DNA of 64,000 nucleotides, from contig NZ_CP064786.1 in assembly GCF_017094485.1 (NCBI RefSeq), positions 62,001 to 126,000 of the forward strand, in the 5' to 3' direction. The stretch is from Natranaeroarchaeum sulfidigenes (GTDB lineage Archaea; Halobacteriota; Halobacteria; Halobacteriales; Natronoarchaeaceae). Below are positions 53,825 through 63,271 of this stretch, piece by piece. How positions within the stretch are numbered: the first letter of the stretch is position 1; every line of letters starts with the position of its first letter. Under the pieces are notes generated by a model. The model had not been told where the DNA came from and did no database searches. It was given only the letters and a program-made list of their open reading frames with translations. Position numbers and translations under genes: made by a program.

Positions 53825-54014
53825 GACATCCACTTTCCCGCTTGAAAATATAAGCGTTGTGGGGAGTGTACGCCCCTCGTGGGTATTCCGCATCGCTTTG
53901 TTGTGGATAGCTGCGCGCAACATCGGTGTCGTTACCCGTTCTCCGTCGTGGATAATGTTCGAAGTCTGAGTATAAACGCCACCTCTATACTCCGTCGGCG
54001 ACTCGCAACGCGCA

Positions 54015-55247
54015 ATGACTTCGGCACAGGTTGCTGACGTTCTCGTCGGCATCTATCTCGGGCTTCTCGCGGGGATCTTCCCGGCGTTTATCGCCTTCTC
54101 GATCGGCTTTGGGTTCAAGTACTTCACCGATGTCACCGTGCCCGGTCTCGGTGTCGTCGTGCTCGGCGGGGCGCTCGCGGGCGTCTCCGGCGGTCTCATG
54201 GGGCTGGTCGATCCGCAACTGGCGGATAGCTGGACCGGTATCACTGCCGTGCTGGTCATCCTGATGGCCTGTCTGTGGGCACACGGCCAGGGCGACAAGC
54301 TCGGGGCGTCGACCCCGCGAAAGCTCACGCTCAAGTCGATTCGAGAGAGTCGGCTGTCGGCGGATCTCGTCGATCGCGTCGACTCGTACGGCCAGATACG
54401 GATTCGCCCGGTCGGAGAGATTCTCGATGTGGAGGGGTATCCACCACTCCCGAACAGTCTCCGCGAGACGCTCCACGAGGGGTCCTGGAAGTTCCCTGCG
54501 AGTCTCTCGCTTGCGGAACTGGAATCACGGCTCGAAGAACGGCTTCTCACGGAGCACGAACTGGCGGCCGCCACGGTCACGATCGACGAGCAGGGGCGGG
54601 CCGAGATCGCCGCCGCGCCCAGTGCTGCCGGTCTCTCCCGCCGGGTCCCGCCCGGACAACGCGCCGTCTCGATCAGGACGCTGCTGCCGAGTGGGGTCGC
54701 CCGTGGGGACTCGGTGACGATCCGGCTTTCCGATGGACCGGTGACCGGTCCGGTCGTGAGCGCACGGACGGAGGGCGACGACACGATCTCGACACAGGAA
54801 CCGCCAGGCGAGACTGCGGGGACGGCCGGGGACGAAAGCGCCGATATGTCGCCGAGGACGCCACCTGTACCGACGACGACGGGCGGGGAGGGTCGCATCA
54901 CGGTCGCCCTGTCGCCCGAGGACGCCCGGCGTGTGATTCGCGCCGATTTCGCGCCGGTGATCGTCCACTCGCGCGGCAAACAGCGCGAATACGAGGCGAT
55001 CGGCGTGCTCAGAGCCCACGGCAACCGCTTCCGGAAGGTGACGATCGGGGCATCGAGTAACCTCGCCGGGGGGACGATCGGCTCCGAACGGATCCGTGAT
55101 ACCTACGGCGTCGCCGTGCTGGCGATCCGCCGTTCGATGGAACGGATCGTCGCTCCTGACGGCGACGCCGAACTGACGCCGGGCGACGCGTTGATCGTCG
55201 TCGGGCGACCGAGCCAGCTGCGGGCGTTCGAGGAGGTGGCCAGATGA
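54015..55247 (+). CDS. Membrane protein with C-terminal RCK_C (TrkA-C) domain, first of a pair
   Basis: 410 residues. N-terminal three TM helices (VLVGIYLGLLAGIFPAFIAFSIGF; VTVPGLGVVVLGGALAGVSGGLMGLV; WTGITAVLVILMACLWAHG), then a soluble central region with LSLAELESRLEERLLTEHELAAATVTI that is shared with the next protein, a low-complexity linker and a C-terminal RCK_C domain (TIGASSNLAGGTIGSERIRDTYGVAVLAIRRSMERIVAPDGDAELTPGDALIVVGRPSQLRAFE). RCK_C domains bind K+, nucleotides or c-di-AMP and gate transporters. Coupled to the following paralogue by a 4-bp overlap. Candidate promoters TATAAAC (53971) or CTATAC (53985) lie upstream. Function unknown. Confidence 0.9.
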   Translation: MTSAQVADVLVGIYLGLLAGIFPAFIAFSIGFGFKYFTDVTVPGLGVVVLGGALAGVSGGLMGLVDPQLADSWTGITAVLVILMACLWAHGQGDKLGASTPRKLTLKSIRESRLSADLVDRVDSYGQIRIRPVGEILDVEGYPPLPNSLRETLHEGSWKFPASLSLAELESRLEERLLTEHELAAATVTIDEQGRAEIAAAPSAAGLSRRVPPGQRAVSIRTLLPSGVARGDSVTIRLSDGPVTGPVVSARTEGDDTISTQEPPGETAGTAGDESADMSPRTPPVPTTTGGEGRITVALSPEDARRVIRADFAPVIVHSRGKQREYEAIGVLRAHGNRFRKVTIGASSNLAGGTIGSERIRDTYGVAVLAIRRSMERIVAPDGDAELTPGDALIVVGRPSQLRAFEEVAR

Positions 55248-56473
55248 CGCTGCTTGCGACGGTTCTCTCGAACCCGCTCGTCGAGGCGGGGATCCGAATC
55301 GTCGGCCTGTCGCTGCTTGCCGCCGCGGTGACGACGCTCGTGGCCTACGTCTATCGGGTCCGGGCACGGGCAGAACTGCCGGAAGGGGCGACCCTCATCA
55401 TCGGACTTGGAGCCGTCGCCATCTACCTAAACACCCGGATCGTGTTCATCCAGTTCGTCGGCGAGACCGGCGACCCGTTTACCGTCTCCGAGGCACTGCT
55501 CAACGTTTCGGTATTCGTGGCGGCGGGGGTGGCATCCTACGGCGGACGCCGACTTGGCAACTGGGCCGGGGAATCGGAGCGATTCTCCTGGGGACGGCTC
55601 CAGCCGGATTTCAGCCCGCTCGTTCGCGCCACGGGGCGGTACATTACCGTTACGCTCCCCGACGACATCGAGGATATCGAGGGCTACGATCCGGTCGAAG
55701 ACGAGACACGAGACGCACTGTCCGGCCGAACGCTCGATTTCTCGCGCGGACTGACGCTTGCGGAACTGGAATCGGGATTGATAACGCGGCTCAAGGAGGA
55801 CCACGATATCGGTTACGTCGACGTCGATCTCGCCGAGGACGGCACGGTCGAGTACTTTGCGGTCGGCCGTCGCGTCGCGGGGATCGGCCCCACGCTCCCC
55901 CCGAAGACCGCGGCGGTCGCGGTCCGTGCGGATCCGCCCTTTAGCGCGACGCCGGGCGATACCGTGCAGGTCTGGCAGGTTCTCGAGGGAGAGGAGACGC
56001 GAATCGGGACTGCAGAGTTGCGCGCCAGCGTCGGGTCGGTCGCGACGCTCGCGACGGACGAATCGGTCGCCGAGCGGATCGATCCGACGGCGGAGTACCG
56101 CCTGATGACGCTCTCGGCGGACTCCCACCCGGATCGGGAGTTCGCGGGGATGCTCCGCCGCGGCGAGGAAACGATGAGCGTCGTCGAGATCGGTACCGGG
56201 AGTCCGCTCGTCGGGAGCCCGATCAGTGCGCTCGACGTGACTGTCATCGCGGTCCAAACGGCGCGCGGCGAGGTCGAGACGATCCCCGCACGCGAGTGGA
56301 TAATCGAGGCGGGCGAACGGCTGTTCGCGATCGGTCGGCCAGACGTGCTCCGCAAACTGGAGGCGACGAACGCGGTCCAGCCCATCACGGTCGACGGGGA
56401 GCTGTCAAATGCCGACGATGCTACGCTGCTGGCGGAACCGGTATCGGAACGACCGCTGGCGGACGAGGAGTAA
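55244..56473 (+). CDS. Membrane protein with C-terminal RCK_C domain, second of the pair
   Basis: 409 residues. Three TM helices (VEAGIRIVGLSLLAAAVTTLVAYVY; LIIGLGAVAIYLNTRIVFIQFVG; SEALLNVSVFVAAGVASYGG), then LTLAELESGLITRLKEDHDIGYVDVDL, the same motif as in the first protein, a beta-rich middle part and a C-terminal RCK_C domain (EIGTGSPLVGSPISALDVTVIAVQTARGEVETIPAREWIIEAGERLFAIGRPDVLRKLEATN). Clearly a diverged paralogue. The pair resembles no characterised transporter I know; three TM segments each suggest a heteromeric channel, regulator or sensor. Convergent with a CPA2 antiporter gene. Confidence 0.9.
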   Translation: MTLLATVLSNPLVEAGIRIVGLSLLAAAVTTLVAYVYRVRARAELPEGATLIIGLGAVAIYLNTRIVFIQFVGETGDPFTVSEALLNVSVFVAAGVASYGGRRLGNWAGESERFSWGRLQPDFSPLVRATGRYITVTLPDDIEDIEGYDPVEDETRDALSGRTLDFSRGLTLAELESGLITRLKEDHDIGYVDVDLAEDGTVEYFAVGRRVAGIGPTLPPKTAAVAVRADPPFSATPGDTVQVWQVLEGEETRIGTAELRASVGSVATLATDESVAERIDPTAEYRLMTLSADSHPDREFAGMLRRGEETMSVVEIGTGSPLVGSPISALDVTVIAVQTARGEVETIPAREWIIEAGERLFAIGRPDVLRKLEATNAVQPITVDGELSNADDATLLAEPVSERPLADEE

Positions 56474-56483
56474 CGGCACGGGG

Positions 56484-57755
56484 TCAGTCGGCGGGTGTCA
56501 CGTCCTCGTCCTCGACGAGGATCGGCTCGGCGATGAGCCACAGACGGTCGGCGTACTGCATCGCCAGCGTTCCGAGGACGCTCATGACGAGCACGTAGCC
56601 GACGGCGATCGATGGAATCGTTTCGGTGACGGCCTGTCCCCACTGGTCCACGCTCGCGGACGTGGCGATCGCCGCAATAATCAGGGAGAACTCCCCGCGC
56701 GTGGTCATCCCGCAGGCGACCCGGAACGATCGGCGCTCGTCGAGATCGTACACGCGCCCACCCAGATAGCCGGTGAGGAACTTCGTTGGCCCCGAGAGGG
56801 CGACCGCCGCGAGGATCAACCCGGCGACGGTCGTATCGAGGAACACGAAGGGATCGGTCAGCAGGCCGATCCAGAAGAAGAAGACGGCGGCGAAGACGTC
56901 CCGGATGGGGATCAACAGCTCCTCGATCTCGTGGACGTGTGAGGTGCTCGAAAAGCCCATCCCGACGAAGAAGGCCGCGACTGCTTCGCTGACTCCCAGT
57001 GCGAGTGCGCCCCCGGCGACGAAGACCGTGATGGCGACCGTTCGCAGGACGGTCAGCTCCACGGAGTCGATCTCGAGGAACTCCTGGAAGTACTCGGTGC
57101 CGAAGTAGACGACGAACACGAGCACGAACAGGACGCCGATCGCGAGCAGGATATCCGTCGTCGCTCCCGAGATGCCGCCTGCCCCGAGCAGGATGGCCGA
57201 GACGACCGCGAGATACAGCGCGATCACGAGATCCTCGTAGACCAGCGTCCCGAGCATCGGGGCACTCTCGTCGTTGGCGATCCAGCCCAGATCGATCAGC
57301 GATTTCGTGATAATCGCCGACGAGGAGATGTATACGACCCCGCCGAGCAAAATCGCCTCTACGATCCCGCCGAAATAGAAGTAGCCGATCAGCACACCCG
57401 GCAGGAAGTTCAGGAGATCGATCGTTCCGGCCTTCCCGATCCGATCCTTGCTCTCGATGAGCCGGTCCATGCTGAACTCCAGTCCGAGGAAAAAGAGCAG
57501 GAAGACGATCCCCAGCTCCGCGCCGAGGTGGATGAACTCCGAATCGGGATCGAGCCAGAGCTCGCTCCCCGAAATCGCCACTCCAATGGTATCCAGCGAA
57601 AGCGTGCCGACACTTCCCAGCACTGCTTCGCCCATCAGGATCCCGGCGACCAGATAGAACGGGATCACCGACTGTCCGACCCGGTTCGCGAGCCCGCCCG
57701 CCACGGCGAGCACCGCGAACATCACACCGACGTGGATCAGTTCTAGCTCCGCCAT
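56484..57755 (-). CDS. CPA2-family cation:proton antiporter (KefB/KhtU-like)
   Basis: 423 residues, ~12 hydrophobic segments, with the CPA2 features FFLGLEFSMDRLIESK, SSSAIITKSLIDLGWIANDESAPMLGTLVYEDLVIALYLAVVSAILLG and GMTTRGEFSLIIAAIATSASVDQWGQAVTETIPSIAVGYVLVMSVLGTLAMQYADRLW. It exchanges K+ or Na+ for H+. The gene for a KhtT-like regulatory subunit ends one base upstream, matching the KhtTU arrangement. Last gene of the four-gene minus-strand operon. Confidence 0.93.
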   Translation of the reverse strand: MAELELIHVGVMFAVLAVAGGLANRVGQSVIPFYLVAGILMGEAVLGSVGTLSLDTIGVAISGSELWLDPDSEFIHLGAELGIVFLLFFLGLEFSMDRLIESKDRIGKAGTIDLLNFLPGVLIGYFYFGGIVEAILLGGVVYISSSAIITKSLIDLGWIANDESAPMLGTLVYEDLVIALYLAVVSAILLGAGGISGATTDILLAIGVLFVLVFVVYFGTEYFQEFLEIDSVELTVLRTVAITVFVAGGALALGVSEAVAAFFVGMGFSSTSHVHEIEELLIPIRDVFAAVFFFWIGLLTDPFVFLDTTVAGLILAAVALSGPTKFLTGYLGGRVYDLDERRSFRVACGMTTRGEFSLIIAAIATSASVDQWGQAVTETIPSIAVGYVLVMSVLGTLAMQYADRLWLIAEPILVEDEDVTPAD

Positions 57756-57756
57756 G

Positions 57757-58269
57757 CTACTCGTTTAGATCGTCTCCCTCGGGTGATTCGCCGCCGGCAA
57801 GGTTTTCGAGCTTTCTGTGACTCTCCCGATCGCCGACCGCGACGAGCGTGTCGCCGTGCTCGATGACGGTGTCGGCGGTCGGATGGTCGATCGTGTCCTC
57901 GCCACGCTGAATCGCGATGATCGACGCACCGGTCTTGTTCCGGATCTCCGAGCTTTCGATCGTCTCTCCGACGATATCGGCCGATTCAGTGACCTTCGAC
58001 CACTCGATCAGGGTGTTTTCGCCCAGCACCGTGTTGACCGCGGTATCCTTGATCGGCTGGAAGTATGCTCCCTCCATGATCGTCCCGATCTGCCGGGCCA
58101 TCTTGTCCGAGAGCTCGAACAGTTTCTCGGAGTCATCGTCGGCGCTCTCTCGGAGGAACACTTCCCGCTTTCCGGTGTTGTGGATGACGATAATCAGCTG
58201 TGTCTCGTCCTCGAGATCGATCTCGAACTTCTTTCCGACCCCCGGCAGGTCGCTCTCGTAGATTACCAT
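57757..58269 (-). CDS. KhtT-like regulatory subunit with RCK_C domain
   Basis: 170 residues. N-terminal KhtT-type domain (ESDLPGVGKKFEIDLEDETQLIIVIHNTGKREVFLRESADDDSEKLFELSDKMARQIGTIMEGAYFQP) and C-terminal RCK_C domain (TESADIVGETIESSEIRNKTGASIIAIQRGEDTIDHPTADTVIEHGDTLVAVGDRESHRKLENLAGG). In KhtTU the KhtT dimer gates the antiporter in response to nucleotide (including c-di-AMP) and pH. The one-base gap to the antiporter gene supports a functional pair. Confidence 0.92.
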   Translation of the reverse strand: MVIYESDLPGVGKKFEIDLEDETQLIIVIHNTGKREVFLRESADDDSEKLFELSDKMARQIGTIMEGAYFQPIKDTAVNTVLGENTLIEWSKVTESADIVGETIESSEIRNKTGASIIAIQRGEDTIDHPTADTVIEHGDTLVAVGDRESHRKLENLAGGESPEGDDLNE

Positions 58270-58314
58270 GGTAGCTCAATGGCAACCCCTCATGGTAAAG
58301 CTCAGGGAATTCGG

Positions 58315-60000
58315 TCACTCGTCGATGTCCGCTGTTACCCGCTCGGTAAACTGGCAGAACTGCTCTCTGGACCGCTCGCTCCCAGCGACGATAAGTACGT
58401 CCTCTTCACGGATGGTAAAGGTCGCATCGACATCGGTCAGTACCTGCTCATCACGTTCAACTGCCACGATGGTACAGCCAGTCTGTCTCCGCAGATCGAG
58501 TTCTTTGAGTGACCGTCCGACGAAGGCGGGCACCGAGGATCTCACGAACTCGAAGTCCGCATCGGGCGTCAGTATCTCCGCTTCATCGATCAACAGTGAC
58601 GCCAGACTCTCGCCGGTGACGTTTGGTAGTGAGAGCACAAAATCCGCGCCAGAGCTGTACAGCTTCTGGACGCTGTCGGCGTCGTCTGCCCGTGCGATAA
58701 CTTCTACATCAGGAGCCAACTGCTCGAGGACGAGCGTCGTGTAAATCGTCGGGGTATCCTCGTCGAGCGAAAGCACGACCGAACGGGCGTTTCTCACATT
58801 TGCTTGCTCCAGAGTCGCTGGGTCAGTAATATCTCCAACGACATCGACCCCGTCTTTGTCTTCGATATCGATCACTTCGACATCGACCCCTTTCTGTCGT
58901 AGCGTCTTCGTAATCGTACGTCCGACAGTTCCGTAGCCACAGACGACAACCCGCGGTTCGTGTGTATCGTGTGTCGGGATAGATCTCGTCTGGATATCTT
59001 CAAAGTCCTCGTGCTCTCCGGCAACCAGTAAAATGGTGTTCTCCTCGATGATCGTGTCGGGATCCGGCGTGACAACGAACTTCCCCCCGAGCCACGCGCC
59101 GACGACCGTCATTCCACGCTCTTCGAAGATATCAGCTTCTCGGAGTGTCTGGCCAACGAGCTCGCTGTTGCGTTCGATCAACAACTCCGTGACACGAAGA
59201 TCGCTCTCGATTTCGATTGCGGCCCGGAGTTTTTCCGCGTAGGTTCCCGCAGCACGGAGTGCGAGGCTTTTGCCGAGCAGTTGCCGTGCGGAGACGATAT
59301 CGTCCGCACCTGCGTATCGGTGGTACGCTTCTACGTCCTCGGACCTGATGACGCTAATCGCTCGCAGTTCCGGGTTTACTTGTCTGGCAGAAAGTATCAC
59401 CGTCGGATTCGTCTCGTCACCGATGTCGGCGACGAGCGACCGTGCGTGTGACGCGTTGGCTGCTCGATAGGTATCGACGACCTCCGGATCCCCGACGATC
59501 GCGTTGAGACCTTGCTCATTCAACTCCGTTACTACATCCGGATCGTCGTCGACGTACAGGTATGAAATGTTCATCGCTTCGAGCTCTTTGCGGAGCACTT
59601 CGTCACGCATAGAGTAGCCAGCGATGATAACGTGGTCCCGGAGGGTACTCTCCGTTGGGGGCTGCGTCTCCAGTGCCTGCCGGAGAAGGGGGACACCAAA
59701 CAGGGGAATCGCCACAAAGACCAGAAGCACCGCCGAGAGGTTCATAAATACGATCAGGAGGGCGAACCGGTCGCTCTGTTCCCAGAGAGCTGTATCGCCG
59801 CCAAAGCCAGCCGTCGTTACGATCTCGACGACGTTCTGTAGTGCCTGAGCGAACGAGATCTCCTCGCCCGTGAACGCGCTTGCCGCCCACTGGTACAACA
59901 GCGTATAGACGACGATGATCGCGACAATGCCTAGTACGGCGACCCAGATACGTCGACGCCAGTCCGCTTCGTCCTGAACTGTCGGTGTGTTTGTACTCAT
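58315..60000 (-). CDS. Two-RCK potassium channel-like protein
   Basis: 561 residues from ATG 60000. Two TM helices (WVAVLGIVAIIVVYTLLYQWAASAF and FALLIVFMNLSAVLLVFVAIPLFGVPLLRQALE) flank a pore loop with ALQNVVEIVTTAGFGGDT, containing a TxGFG-type K+ selectivity filter. Two RCK modules follow: RCK_N (HVIIAGYSMRDEVLRKELE...VVDTYRAANASHARSLVADIGDETN) and RCK_C (VTELLIERNSELVGQTLREADIFEERGMTVVGAWLGG), then a second RCK_N (VVVCGYGTVGRTITKTLRQKGVDVEVIDIEDKDGVDVVGDITDPATLEQANVRNARSVVLSL) and RCK_C. This is the architecture of MthK-like gated K+ channels with fused tandem RCK. The APC-permease gene ends 1 base upstream. Confidence 0.92.
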   Translation of the reverse strand: MSTNTPTVQDEADWRRRIWVAVLGIVAIIVVYTLLYQWAASAFTGEEISFAQALQNVVEIVTTAGFGGDTALWEQSDRFALLIVFMNLSAVLLVFVAIPLFGVPLLRQALETQPPTESTLRDHVIIAGYSMRDEVLRKELEAMNISYLYVDDDPDVVTELNEQGLNAIVGDPEVVDTYRAANASHARSLVADIGDETNPTVILSARQVNPELRAISVIRSEDVEAYHRYAGADDIVSARQLLGKSLALRAAGTYAEKLRAAIEIESDLRVTELLIERNSELVGQTLREADIFEERGMTVVGAWLGGKFVVTPDPDTIIEENTILLVAGEHEDFEDIQTRSIPTHDTHEPRVVVCGYGTVGRTITKTLRQKGVDVEVIDIEDKDGVDVVGDITDPATLEQANVRNARSVVLSLDEDTPTIYTTLVLEQLAPDVEVIARADDADSVQKLYSSGADFVLSLPNVTGESLASLLIDEAEILTPDADFEFVRSSVPAFVGRSLKELDLRRQTGCTIVAVERDEQVLTDVDATFTIREEDVLIVAGSERSREQFCQFTERVTADIDE

Positions 60001-60001
60001 T

Positions 60002-62302
60002 TCAAACGCTGAGTCGTTTCCGTATTGCGGCACGAAGCGACCGCTCGGTCCCGTCCCTGCTCCGTACAAGCAGGATCGTTCCCGGTACTTGCTCACCGAT
60101 CGTTTCCGGGATCGCTCCCGAGAGGAGCCGTTCGACGGAGCTCACTCTCGAGACACCGAGACAGACGGTATCGTATCTACGCCCGATCTTCACGAGTTCT
60201 GACTCAACATCGTCGGTCACGACGACGTTCGACTCGTACCCTTCGACATCAACCGATCGGGCGGTTTCGTCGATGATCTCTTGGCCTCGCTTGACGAGCG
60301 CATCAGTCTCTTCGCTTCCGTCACTGGTCTGGACGTTCACCAGCGTCAGCGTTGCGTCGTCATCCATTCGTGCGATCGCTGCTGCCTTTCGGACGGCGAT
60401 CGACGAGTAGGGTCCCTCTCCAACGAACGCAACGACGTCACCGGCCGTTTCCTCCACATACCTTACAAGTGTCACTTCACAGGGTGCCTGCTCGATGAGG
60501 CGGTCGATGTTCGATCCGAGCACTCGGTCACGGCGTTTCCGTGTCCCGGACCAGCCCATCACGACATCGTCTGCGTTCTCCTGTTCGATCACGTGCAGGA
60601 CCGTCTTCCCGACGTCACGACCGACGAGCGCACGTGTCCGTAGCCCGATATCCAGTTCTGTTGCAATTTCCTCGGCTTCGGCTAGCAGTTCCTGCTGCCG
60701 GTCGATCCGCTCTTGCTCGTAGCTGACCTCCTGGGCAAGCGAGGTTTGATCCGGTACCGTGATGACGTTCATTACGACGAGTTCGGCCTCACCGTCGTGG
60801 CTTGCCGCACTCGCAGCAGCCAGACGTATCAGTCCTCGTTCAGTCTCTGGGCTCGCAACCGGTACAACGACACGGTACGGGCTCTCGCCCCCTTCAGGCG
60901 TGGGTTCGACCGTGTCGATCAGCGCTTCGCCGACGATTCCGGTTCGGTCAACTCGCGGACGGCCGTAGACCCAGTACCAGAGCGCACCCAGCAGGGCGAT
61001 ACCGATCCCGCCCACTTGTGGCAACAGGTCCATCTGTGTGATAATCCCGAGTCCGGCAAACACGCCGAATAACTGGATCCACGGGTACAGCGGCGACCTG
61101 AAGTCAGGGTCATACCACTCTGGATCCCGGCGTCGGAACGCGATCAGGGAGAGACAGACGAGAATGTACACAACGATCTGGAACGCCCCCGCAGTCTTGG
61201 CAATCTCTTCAACCGGTAACGTGATGATAATGAACAGCATCGCGCCGCCGGTGATCAGGATCGCGGTCACGGGCGTGTGGAACCGGTCACTGACCGTCGC
61301 AAACTCGTCCGGCAGGAGGTTGTCCCGGCTCAGCGCGAACGGGTATCTCGATGCGGTGAGAATACCGGCGTTCGCGGTACTGATCAGCGCAAACATCGCG
61401 GCAACGATAATCAACAATACGCCGATGAAGCCGAAGAACGGCTCCGTCCCGTCGACCATCGGGATGTCGGATCCTGCCAGCGTCTCGGCGTCGACGACGC
61501 CGACGAGCACGAACACAATAAGCGCGTACAGCGCCGTAGTGAGCCCGAGCGACAACAGAAGCCCAAGCGGTAGGTTTCGACCCGGATTCTTGATTTCTTC
61601 GGCAACGGCAGCGACTTTCGTCACACCACCGTAGGAGATCAGGACCATCGCTGTAGCAGCGAACAGCCCGACAGCACCCTCCTCGAAGAAGCCGTCGTAG
61701 CTTCCTCCCTCGATGTTGCCCATCGAGAGTGCGACGAAGCCGCCGAGAATAAACATCATTACAAGAACGAGGATCTTCTGGAGTCCGCCGGTCTGTTTGA
61801 CACCGACGACGTTGATCGTGATCAGAAGGGCTCCGATGACGACCGCTATTAGTTCGAGGTATGTTATTTCGAGCGCGTACGACAGACCGATCGCCGCGCT
61901 TTCAATCGGAAACGGGCCGACCAGTTCGCCGGATACATCAACGCCAAGCCTGTCGAAGATCGGGCCGAGATACAGCATCCCGCCCACGAGTGCGAGCGCA
62001 CCCTTAAACATCAGCATCAGCCACGTCCCGAGACCGGCGATCGTCCCGGCACCCGGGCCCATCCCTCGTTCGATGAAGATGTAGTCCCCACCCGCTTCGG
62101 GCATTGCAGTCCCCAGCTCGGCGATACTGATTGCCGCGGGAAGGACGAGGAGTGCTGCGATGACGAACGCGAGAATAACCGAGGGACCCGCCTCTGCCAT
62201 TGCTAGCCCCGGCAGAATAAAGATCCCACTGCCGATCATCGCGCCCATGCTGATTGCTACGACCGCTACCAGTCCCAGATCCCGCTCTAGTTCTTCTGCC
62301 AT
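60002..62302 (-). CDS. APC-superfamily amino acid permease fused to two UspA domains
   Basis: 766 residues. First ~450 residues: 12 TM APC permease with SMGAMIGSGIFILPGLAMAEAGPSVILAFVIAALLVLPAAISIAELGTAMPEAGGDYIFIERGMGPGAGTIAGLGTWL, the GSGIF substrate motif. C-terminal ~300 residues: two UspA domains (VVVPVASPETERGLIRLAAASA...GWSGTRKRRDRVLGSNIDRLIEQAPCEVTLVRY and VVAFVGEGPYSSIAVRKAAAIARMDDDATLTLVNVQ...LLSGAIPETIGEQVPGTILLVRSRDG). Fused UspA domains suggest direct regulation by ATP or AMP. First gene of the four-gene operon; divergent from the Lrp-RCK_C gene. Substrate unknown. Confidence 0.93.
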   Translation of the reverse strand: MAEELERDLGLVAVVAISMGAMIGSGIFILPGLAMAEAGPSVILAFVIAALLVLPAAISIAELGTAMPEAGGDYIFIERGMGPGAGTIAGLGTWLMLMFKGALALVGGMLYLGPIFDRLGVDVSGELVGPFPIESAAIGLSYALEITYLELIAVVIGALLITINVVGVKQTGGLQKILVLVMMFILGGFVALSMGNIEGGSYDGFFEEGAVGLFAATAMVLISYGGVTKVAAVAEEIKNPGRNLPLGLLLSLGLTTALYALIVFVLVGVVDAETLAGSDIPMVDGTEPFFGFIGVLLIIVAAMFALISTANAGILTASRYPFALSRDNLLPDEFATVSDRFHTPVTAILITGGAMLFIIITLPVEEIAKTAGAFQIVVYILVCLSLIAFRRRDPEWYDPDFRSPLYPWIQLFGVFAGLGIITQMDLLPQVGGIGIALLGALWYWVYGRPRVDRTGIVGEALIDTVEPTPEGGESPYRVVVPVASPETERGLIRLAAASAASHDGEAELVVMNVITVPDQTSLAQEVSYEQERIDRQQELLAEAEEIATELDIGLRTRALVGRDVGKTVLHVIEQENADDVVMGWSGTRKRRDRVLGSNIDRLIEQAPCEVTLVRYVEETAGDVVAFVGEGPYSSIAVRKAAAIARMDDDATLTLVNVQTSDGSEETDALVKRGQEIIDETARSVDVEGYESNVVVTDDVESELVKIGRRYDTVCLGVSRVSSVERLLSGAIPETIGEQVPGTILLVRSRDGTERSLRAAIRKRLSV

Positions 62303-62488
62303 GGTGTATTTGTTCAGTCTCGACCGCTGTGGATCGCTGGTCGATGAAGTTCGTTATTCTGTCTTCCCCTGTCCAGATATATAATATCTCCGAATGGATT
62401 GCTGGTCGCACAATTAATGGGGTATATTTTGCGCCTTGAGCAGACTAGTAGTATTATATTCATTGAAACTAAAGCACATACTGTTGCT

Positions 62489-63271
62489 ATGGTATCTGGC
62501 TCGAAGCATGGACACGACTACCGGTTAGACGAGATTGATCGGTTGATCGTCCACGCGCTGATGACGGACGCGCGATCGATCTCCGCACCCGATATTGCGG
62601 ACGACGTCAACGTCTCCGCCGGGACAATACGGAACCGAATTGCACGGCTTGAAGAACATGGGATCGTCACCGGGTATCATGCCGCGGTCGATTTCGAACG
62701 TGCGGATGGCAGTCTCACGAACCTCTTTCTCTGTAATGTCCCGTTCCCGGATATCGAACGTGTGACCGCACAGTCGGGAGGGATCCCTGGTGTCATCGAT
62801 ATCCGCGAGCTTATGGGTGGGCGAACGAACCTCCACGTCCTTGCAGTGGGCGATAACACGACCGAACTGCGTCGTATCGGCCGTCAGCTCTCGGAAATCG
62901 GCGTCGAAATCGAGGACGAGATGCTCGTCAAAGACAGATCACGGTTCTCGTACGGCCCGTTCGGGCCGGAGGCAGACGAGTCGGTGTCGCTTGCGGACTC
63001 CATCTCGCTGGCGGGCGGCGCGGAGGTCATCGACATCCCGGTCGATGCGGATGCACCGGTCGTCGGTCTGACTGTCGAGCACGCCGTCGAGGAGGGGCTC
63101 CTGCCGCCGGAGGCACTGCTGGTTGCAATCGAACGGGACGACGAGACGATCACGCCACACGGCGACACAGTCATTCAGTCGAACGACATCGTTACCGTGT
63201 TTTCTCGCGATCCATCCGAGACCGTTCTCAATGGGTTCGAGGTTGCGGACCCCGTGGAGGTCGATGAATGA
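62489..63271 (+). CDS. Lrp/AsnC-type regulator fused to an RCK_C domain
   Basis: 260 residues from ATG 62489 (a start 30 codons upstream lies before the TATA-like TATTATATT at ~62452-62460, so is unlikely). N-terminal winged HTH (DEIDRLIVHALMTDARSISAPDIADDVNVSAGTIRNRIARLEEHGIVTGYHAAVDFERAD), a partial ligand-binding region (LTNLFLCNVPFPDIERVTAQSGGIPGVIDIRELMGGRTNLHVLAVGDN) and a C-terminal RCK_C domain (IDIPVDADAPVVGLTVEHAVEEGLLPPEALLVAIERDDETITPHGDTVIQSNDIVTVFSRDPSETVLNGFEVADP). A DNA-binding protein with a potassium-transport sensor domain; probably controls the divergent permease-channel-antiporter operon. Coupled to the next stress-protein gene (ATGA). Confidence 0.9.
   Translation: MVSGSKHGHDYRLDEIDRLIVHALMTDARSISAPDIADDVNVSAGTIRNRIARLEEHGIVTGYHAAVDFERADGSLTNLFLCNVPFPDIERVTAQSGGIPGVIDIRELMGGRTNLHVLAVGDNTTELRRIGRQLSEIGVEIEDEMLVKDRSRFSYGPFGPEADESVSLADSISLAGGAEVIDIPVDADAPVVGLTVEHAVEEGLLPPEALLVAIERDDETITPHGDTVIQSNDIVTVFSRDPSETVLNGFEVADPVEVDE

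Follow-up and report, generated by a model that had tools for sequence, protein, structure and literature searches.

The window, a 64,000-nucleotide stretch of the 3.04 Mb chromosome of the haloarchaeon Natranaeroarchaeum sulfidigenes, includes two coupled genes, here called TMR1 and TMR2, that encode membrane proteins ending in an RCK_C domain (Table 1). RCK_C is a nucleotide- and ion-sensing domain known from potassium channels, and haloarchaea hold molar K+ inside the cell; to our knowledge, little is known about how haloarchaeal K+ is gated. The start of TMR2 overlaps the stop of TMR1 by 4 bp (ATGA), and the two proteins share 30% identity over 300 columns (BLASTP E 3e-15). They are paralogues, as an earlier sequence-only reading of this DNA had proposed. 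The pair is under purifying selection (dN/dS 0.11–0.30 vs relatives, a rough guide as dS is near saturation in distant comparisons), and because of these values and its presence across the class, the pair is not a chance arrangement.

Table 1. Coordinates of the TMR1/TMR2 pair, its parts, and neighboring genes in the window.
Feature	Position	Strand	Note
TATAAA, possible archaeal promoter, ~40 bp 5' of TMR1 start	53971..53976	+	by eye only
TMR1 (410 aa), three TM segments and RCK_C	54015..55247	+	
TMR1 TM1–TM3, residues 8–92	54036..54290	+	model and relatives
TMR1 alpha/beta linker domain, residues 122–203	54378..54623	+	holds LSLAELESRLEERL motif
TMR1 small beta domain, residues 204–299	54624..54911	+	weak RcpC/CpaB resemblance
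TMR1 RCK_C, residues 342–407	55038..55235	+	
TMR2 (409 aa), paralogue of TMR1, three TM segments and RCK_C	55244..56473	+	
TMR2 TM1–TM3, residues 12–100	55277..55543	+	model and relatives
TMR2 linker and beta domains, residues 129–292	55628..56119	+	holds LTLAELESGLITRL motif
TMR2 RCK_C, residues 313–374	56180..56365	+	
CPA2-type cation/proton antiporter (Na_H_Exchanger)	56484..57755	-	convergent with pair
KhtT-like protein with RCK_C	57757..58269	-	
Two-TM channel-like protein, two RCK_N and two RCK_C	58315..60096	-	TTAGFGG filter-like motif

The genome encodes 15 RCK_C domains in ~12 genes. Five of these 12 genes lie within 8.2 kb (117038–125202 of the contig, ~55038–63202 of the window), a density that none of 200,000 random placements attained.

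Domain architecture of TMR1 and TMR2

Both proteins have three TM segments, in agreement with the sequence-only reading. AlphaFold models contain long N-terminal helices at residues 3–38, 45–65, and 67–99 of TMR1 and 11–41, 47–72, and 80–110 of TMR2, which coincide with hydrophobic segments conserved in 66 relatives. The models were built from shallow alignments (12–13 rows; pLDDT 71 for TMR1 and 66 for TMR2) and have low pTM (0.30 and 0.29, respectively), and we used their local domains alone. In both, the three helices are followed by an alpha/beta domain, then by a small beta domain, and finally by RCK_C, with a disordered linker before RCK_C in the TMR1 model. Hydrophobicity and charge across the 66 relatives fit an N-out/C-in topology, and basic residues after TM3 of TMR1 suggest that the C-terminus is cytoplasmic.

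The stretch of ~200 residues that links the TM segments to RCK_C, overlooked in the earlier reading, makes up a conserved alpha/beta plus beta-barrel-like module. The shared LxLAELESxLxxRL motif that had been reported is indeed present in both proteins and is located within the alpha/beta domain. In TMR1, this domain is among the most conserved soluble parts and occurs in all three clades described below.

TrkA_C (RCK_C) is the sole Pfam match in each protein (55.1 bits for TMR1 and 33.5 for TMR2 vs a 27-bit cut-off), and the top Foldseek PDB matches of both models are the RCK_C domains of MthK, KhtT, and BusR, with no other part matched among these top structures; by sequence and fold, both are RCK_C domain proteins. 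Pfam TrkA_N (RCK_N) is absent from TMR1, TMR2, and 46 scanned family members, so the description of one C-terminal RCK_C and no RCK_N holds. RCK_C is kept in 22 of 25 scanned TMR1 proteins, all clades together. In aligned relatives, the first helix region of the TMR2 RCK_C is shorter than that of TMR1.

The region before RCK_C matched no Pfam family, known transporter, or solved structure, and a profile of this part of TMR1 had no significant match in the PDB. This bears out the earlier statement that the topology fits no known transporter family, and none was found outside RCK_C in Pfam, NCBIfam, PHROGs, PADLOC, or the PDB. RcpC scored below threshold (16.8 bits vs a 28.8-bit cut-off), with weak matches in 8 of 25 TMR1 relatives (best E 0.001); since these are below the cut-off, we rejected an identity as an RcpC/CpaB pilus protein. 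The match of TMR2 to the SMUBP-2 1B domain is also weak, and we read it as small-beta-barrel resemblance only.

Distribution, divergence, and genomic neighborhoods

Of 194 Halobacteria genomes in 65 genera, 164 (57 genera) have a TMR1 match and 163 (56 genera) have a TMR2 match. The pair is therefore in ~83% of these genomes, though a few of the weakest TMR1 matches probably reflect RCK_C only. When 345 genomes from across the phylum were scanned, the core profile matched 54, all within the Halobacteria order sampled, and had no match in ~280 non-Halobacteria genomes of the phylum. Whole-protein searches outside Halobacteria returned RCK_C matches only, and viral contigs contained no relatives of the pair. 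One MAG contig labeled Thermoplasmata (L009) carries a pair with 61% identity, by transfer or mis-binning.

In each of the 63 loci, TMR1 comes before TMR2 and shares its strand, and in 45 the ends overlap. Conservation of the two genes as a unit, on which the earlier proposal depended, is thus borne out. In the phylogenetic tree, the TMR1/TMR2 split is ancient and fully supported. The same sub-clades are repeated in both halves, and the two genes therefore evolved together. TMR1–TMR2 distances retain a partial correlation of 0.60–0.82 after control genes. Fixed gene order and parallel divergence favor a heteromer, which is the part of the earlier "heteromeric channel" suggestion that stood; we found no support for the pair itself transporting ions. 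We rejected a strong co-divergence of TMR with Kch, as the TMR1 correlation with this channel (r 0.73) is not distinguishable from that with a TM-Usp control neighbor (0.68).

The neighborhood survey identified a Kch-type channel as the commonest neighbor. In the main clade (a), with 45 loci, a Kch-like channel lies divergently upstream of the pair in 39 loci from different genera (38 seen as open frames, and L110 in a tblastn search), and the next gene after the pair is often one for a small ThiS-like protein similar to SAMP1. In one locus (L103), a CPA2 gene lies between Kch and the pair. Kch consists of Ion_trans_2 and TrkA_N, with TrkA_C absent.

The window pair belongs to clade (b), with 12 members in the tree and varied K+ settings. 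In genus g4 (L073, also G001), Kch lies 50–68 bp upstream on the same strand, and Kch and the pair form an apparent operon. In L010 (9200–10820), a frameshifted pair is followed by a Kch fragment and then KhtT and CPA2; this pair is decaying. In the window and in L070 of the same genus, the pair adjoins CPA2/KhtT. A cation/proton antiporter adjoins the pair or lies close to it in the window, L070, L010, L103, and two Natrinema plasmids. Clade (b) pairs occur on four megaplasmids; on two of these (Natrinema) the pair is found with antiporters and ion channels, and on the other two it is not. One Natrinema plasmid has a Kch fragment, and the plasmid records label the pair only as "TrkA C-terminal domain-containing protein." About half of the clade (b) loci have no recognized K+ gene nearby (L007, L008, L085, L113, and L177).

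Clade (c) comprises nine loci. Most lie close to a HerA-like ATPase gene, and those examined also have a secretion ATPase (T2SSE) and DUF7310/7311. The HerA-like/T2SSE sub-clade loci are L095, L102, L115, L122, L124, L125, and L129.

Kch itself is present in 190 of 194 Halobacteria genomes, ~26–30 of which lack the pair, and we therefore rejected the idea that Kch always requires the pair. All four genomes without Kch also lack the pair (hypergeometric ~5e-4, which ignores kinship and joint deletion). In many loci that lack the pair, Kch lies beside a SAMP1-like gene, usually divergently (L148–L150, L152, L155, L157, L158, L160, L163, L164, and L167–L170), and pair fragments remain in L171 and G030. 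Many of these genomes look as if the pair had dropped out between Kch and the SAMP1-like gene. The Kch of the genome studied here (2025948–2027063) similarly adjoins a SAMP1-like gene without the pair, and lies elsewhere than the window pair. Because the Kch–pair–SAMP1 neighborhood also holds unrelated genes (Udp, the TM-Usp protein, and the ThiS-like gene), the Kch–pair synteny may be only inherited order.

Possible role in potassium transport

The recurrent K+-gene context points to a role in K+ transport. We propose, with a probability of about 50%, that TMR1 and TMR2 together regulate K+ channels or efflux as an accessory RCK_C heteromer anchored in the membrane, for which partner and ligand are candidates. 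The two proteins would form a heteromeric membrane complex with three TM segments each, N-termini outside and C-termini inside, whose cytoplasmic module and RCK_C domains would serve K+ channels and K+/H+ antiporters as an accessory regulator. Its partners would most likely be the class-wide Kch-like channel, which has RCK_N and no RCK_C, and, at this locus, the CPA2/KhtT system. TMR1 has a canonical RCK_C and would be the subunit that binds the ligand at a dimer interface, whether c-di-AMP, some other adenine nucleotide, or a cation, and TMR2, with its truncated RCK_C helix, may be a structural or transducing partner. Ligand binding would alter the RCK_C dimer, then the beta module and the TM bundle, and the partner would open or close. 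The clustering of RCK_C genes here and the lack of the pair in all four Kch-less genomes also speak for this proposal; against it stand the genomes that have Kch and no pair, the possibly inherited synteny, the clade (b) loci with no recognized K+ gene, and clade (c). With its presence in most haloarchaea, including a model species, and its undescribed core, the pair is a concrete, deletable candidate for K+ control.

For TMR1 only, c-di-AMP is a plausible ligand. The closest PDB sequence to its RCK_C is the c-di-AMP-binding RCK_C of Staphylococcus aureus KtrA (4xtt, E 4.5e-8). We mapped the BusR pocket residues (PMC8517857) to KtrA and TMR1 by our own alignment: TMR1 keeps the hydrophobic wall positions I355, I360, V366, A367, and V368, plus R361/D362, but has G383 at the position of BusR Pro181. 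TMR2 is without the pocket helix in aligned relatives. A diadenylate cyclase is encoded in this genome. According to a 2019 study (PMC6741144), Haloferax volcanii produces c-di-AMP, and its dacZ is essential and tied to osmohomeostasis; the c-di-AMP targets were unknown in that work. The pair is a candidate archaeal c-di-AMP receptor.

We consider it doubtful that the system goes as far as a split RCK, in which the RCK_N-only Kch would receive RCK_C in trans from a TMR1/TMR2 heteromer that is also an archaeal c-di-AMP receptor. If true, this would be a channel-plus-membrane-sensor assembly of an undescribed kind.

The context of clade (c) points elsewhere than to a K+ regulator. The pair could instead serve more generally as a membrane scaffold or nucleotide sensor that has no tie to K+ and is recruited to different machines, with RCK_C as an optional input. 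Consistent with this, one sub-clade adjoins the HerA-like and T2SSE ATPases and DUF7310/7311, the TMR1 of L095 in clade (c) has no recognizable RCK_C while its TM and linker parts are conserved, and the weak RcpC/CpaB resemblance recurs among TMR1 relatives. However, RCK_C is retained in the main and window clades, which are found repeatedly next to K+ genes in several different layouts, and we consider this reading unlikely.

It is more improbable that TMR1 and TMR2 themselves make up a heteromeric channel or transporter, with their own RCK_C domains as the gate. Such a role would fit the pair's six conserved TM segments, the glycine-rich TM2 of TMR1, and the fact that RCK_C is typical of gated transport proteins, but the pair has no transporter or channel similarity outside RCK_C (Pfam, NCBIfam, and PDB), has no selectivity-filter motif, and recurs next to complete channels and antiporters. 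Pfam Ion_trans and Ion_trans_2 pore domains are absent from TMR1, TMR2, and scanned relatives. MthK and GsuK share the RCK_C fold and are also membrane proteins with a cytoplasmic RCK, but they have a K+ pore and a full RCK_N–RCK_C unit, whereas the pair has neither pore motif nor RCK_N, which sets it apart from RCK-gated K+ channels of the MthK/Kch type.

Least probable is a specific regulator of the neighboring CPA2/KhtT antiporter, as KhtT is of KhtU: CPA2 adjoins the pair in the window and L070, and antiporter or KhtT genes lie near L010, L103, and on the two Natrinema plasmids, but most main-clade loci examined have no CPA2, the antiporter already has a KhtT-like subunit, and the pair and CPA2 are convergent with no common operon. 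Thus, where an antiporter regulator had been suggested, "regulator" fits the recurrent K+-transport neighborhoods, but the antiporter link is found in a minority of loci only.

Returning to the accessory regulator, its closest known counterparts are built differently. KhtT (KhtTU, 7agv) is likewise an RCK_C regulator encoded beside a CPA2 antiporter and is a structural match to both models; however, it is soluble, small, and unpaired, whereas TMR1 and TMR2 each cross the membrane three times, have a middle module unrelated to KhtT, and adjoin antiporters only in some loci. The K+ uptake regulators KtrA and KtrC (4xtt, 6i8v) are among the closest sequences to the TMR1 RCK_C, but they form soluble rings with RCK_N and RCK_C, whereas the pair is membrane-integral and lacks the RCK_N Rossmann domain that precedes RCK_C in KtrA/TrkA-type regulators.

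As far as we found, the family has been noted once before and never studied. In most genomes the gene after the pair is SAMP1-like, and we take SAMP1 to be HVO_2619. For this reason, and because HVO_2617 (haloarchaeal composite family 1329) is described as a 403 aa Halobacteria protein with a three-pass N-terminal membrane part and a C-terminal TrkA domain, like TMR1, the two very probably belong to the same family, equated by description and SAMP1-like neighbor, not by alignment (PMC5992828). The "undescribed system" of the sequence-only reading was thus already noted in 2018, without function, with K+ uptake as a guess (PMC5992828). In its description of this family, that source treats one gene, without a paired paralogue, Kch neighborhood, sub-clades, or conserved middle module.

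Two other genes near the pair have unusual layouts. In the channel-like protein at 58315–60096 (-), TTAGFGG replaces the usual TVGYGD filter, and the two RCK units are complete. The gene at 62399–63271 (+), which lies in tandem with a Usp gene, encodes an AsnC-type HTH fused to RCK_C, an archaeal version of a BusR-like transcription factor layout.
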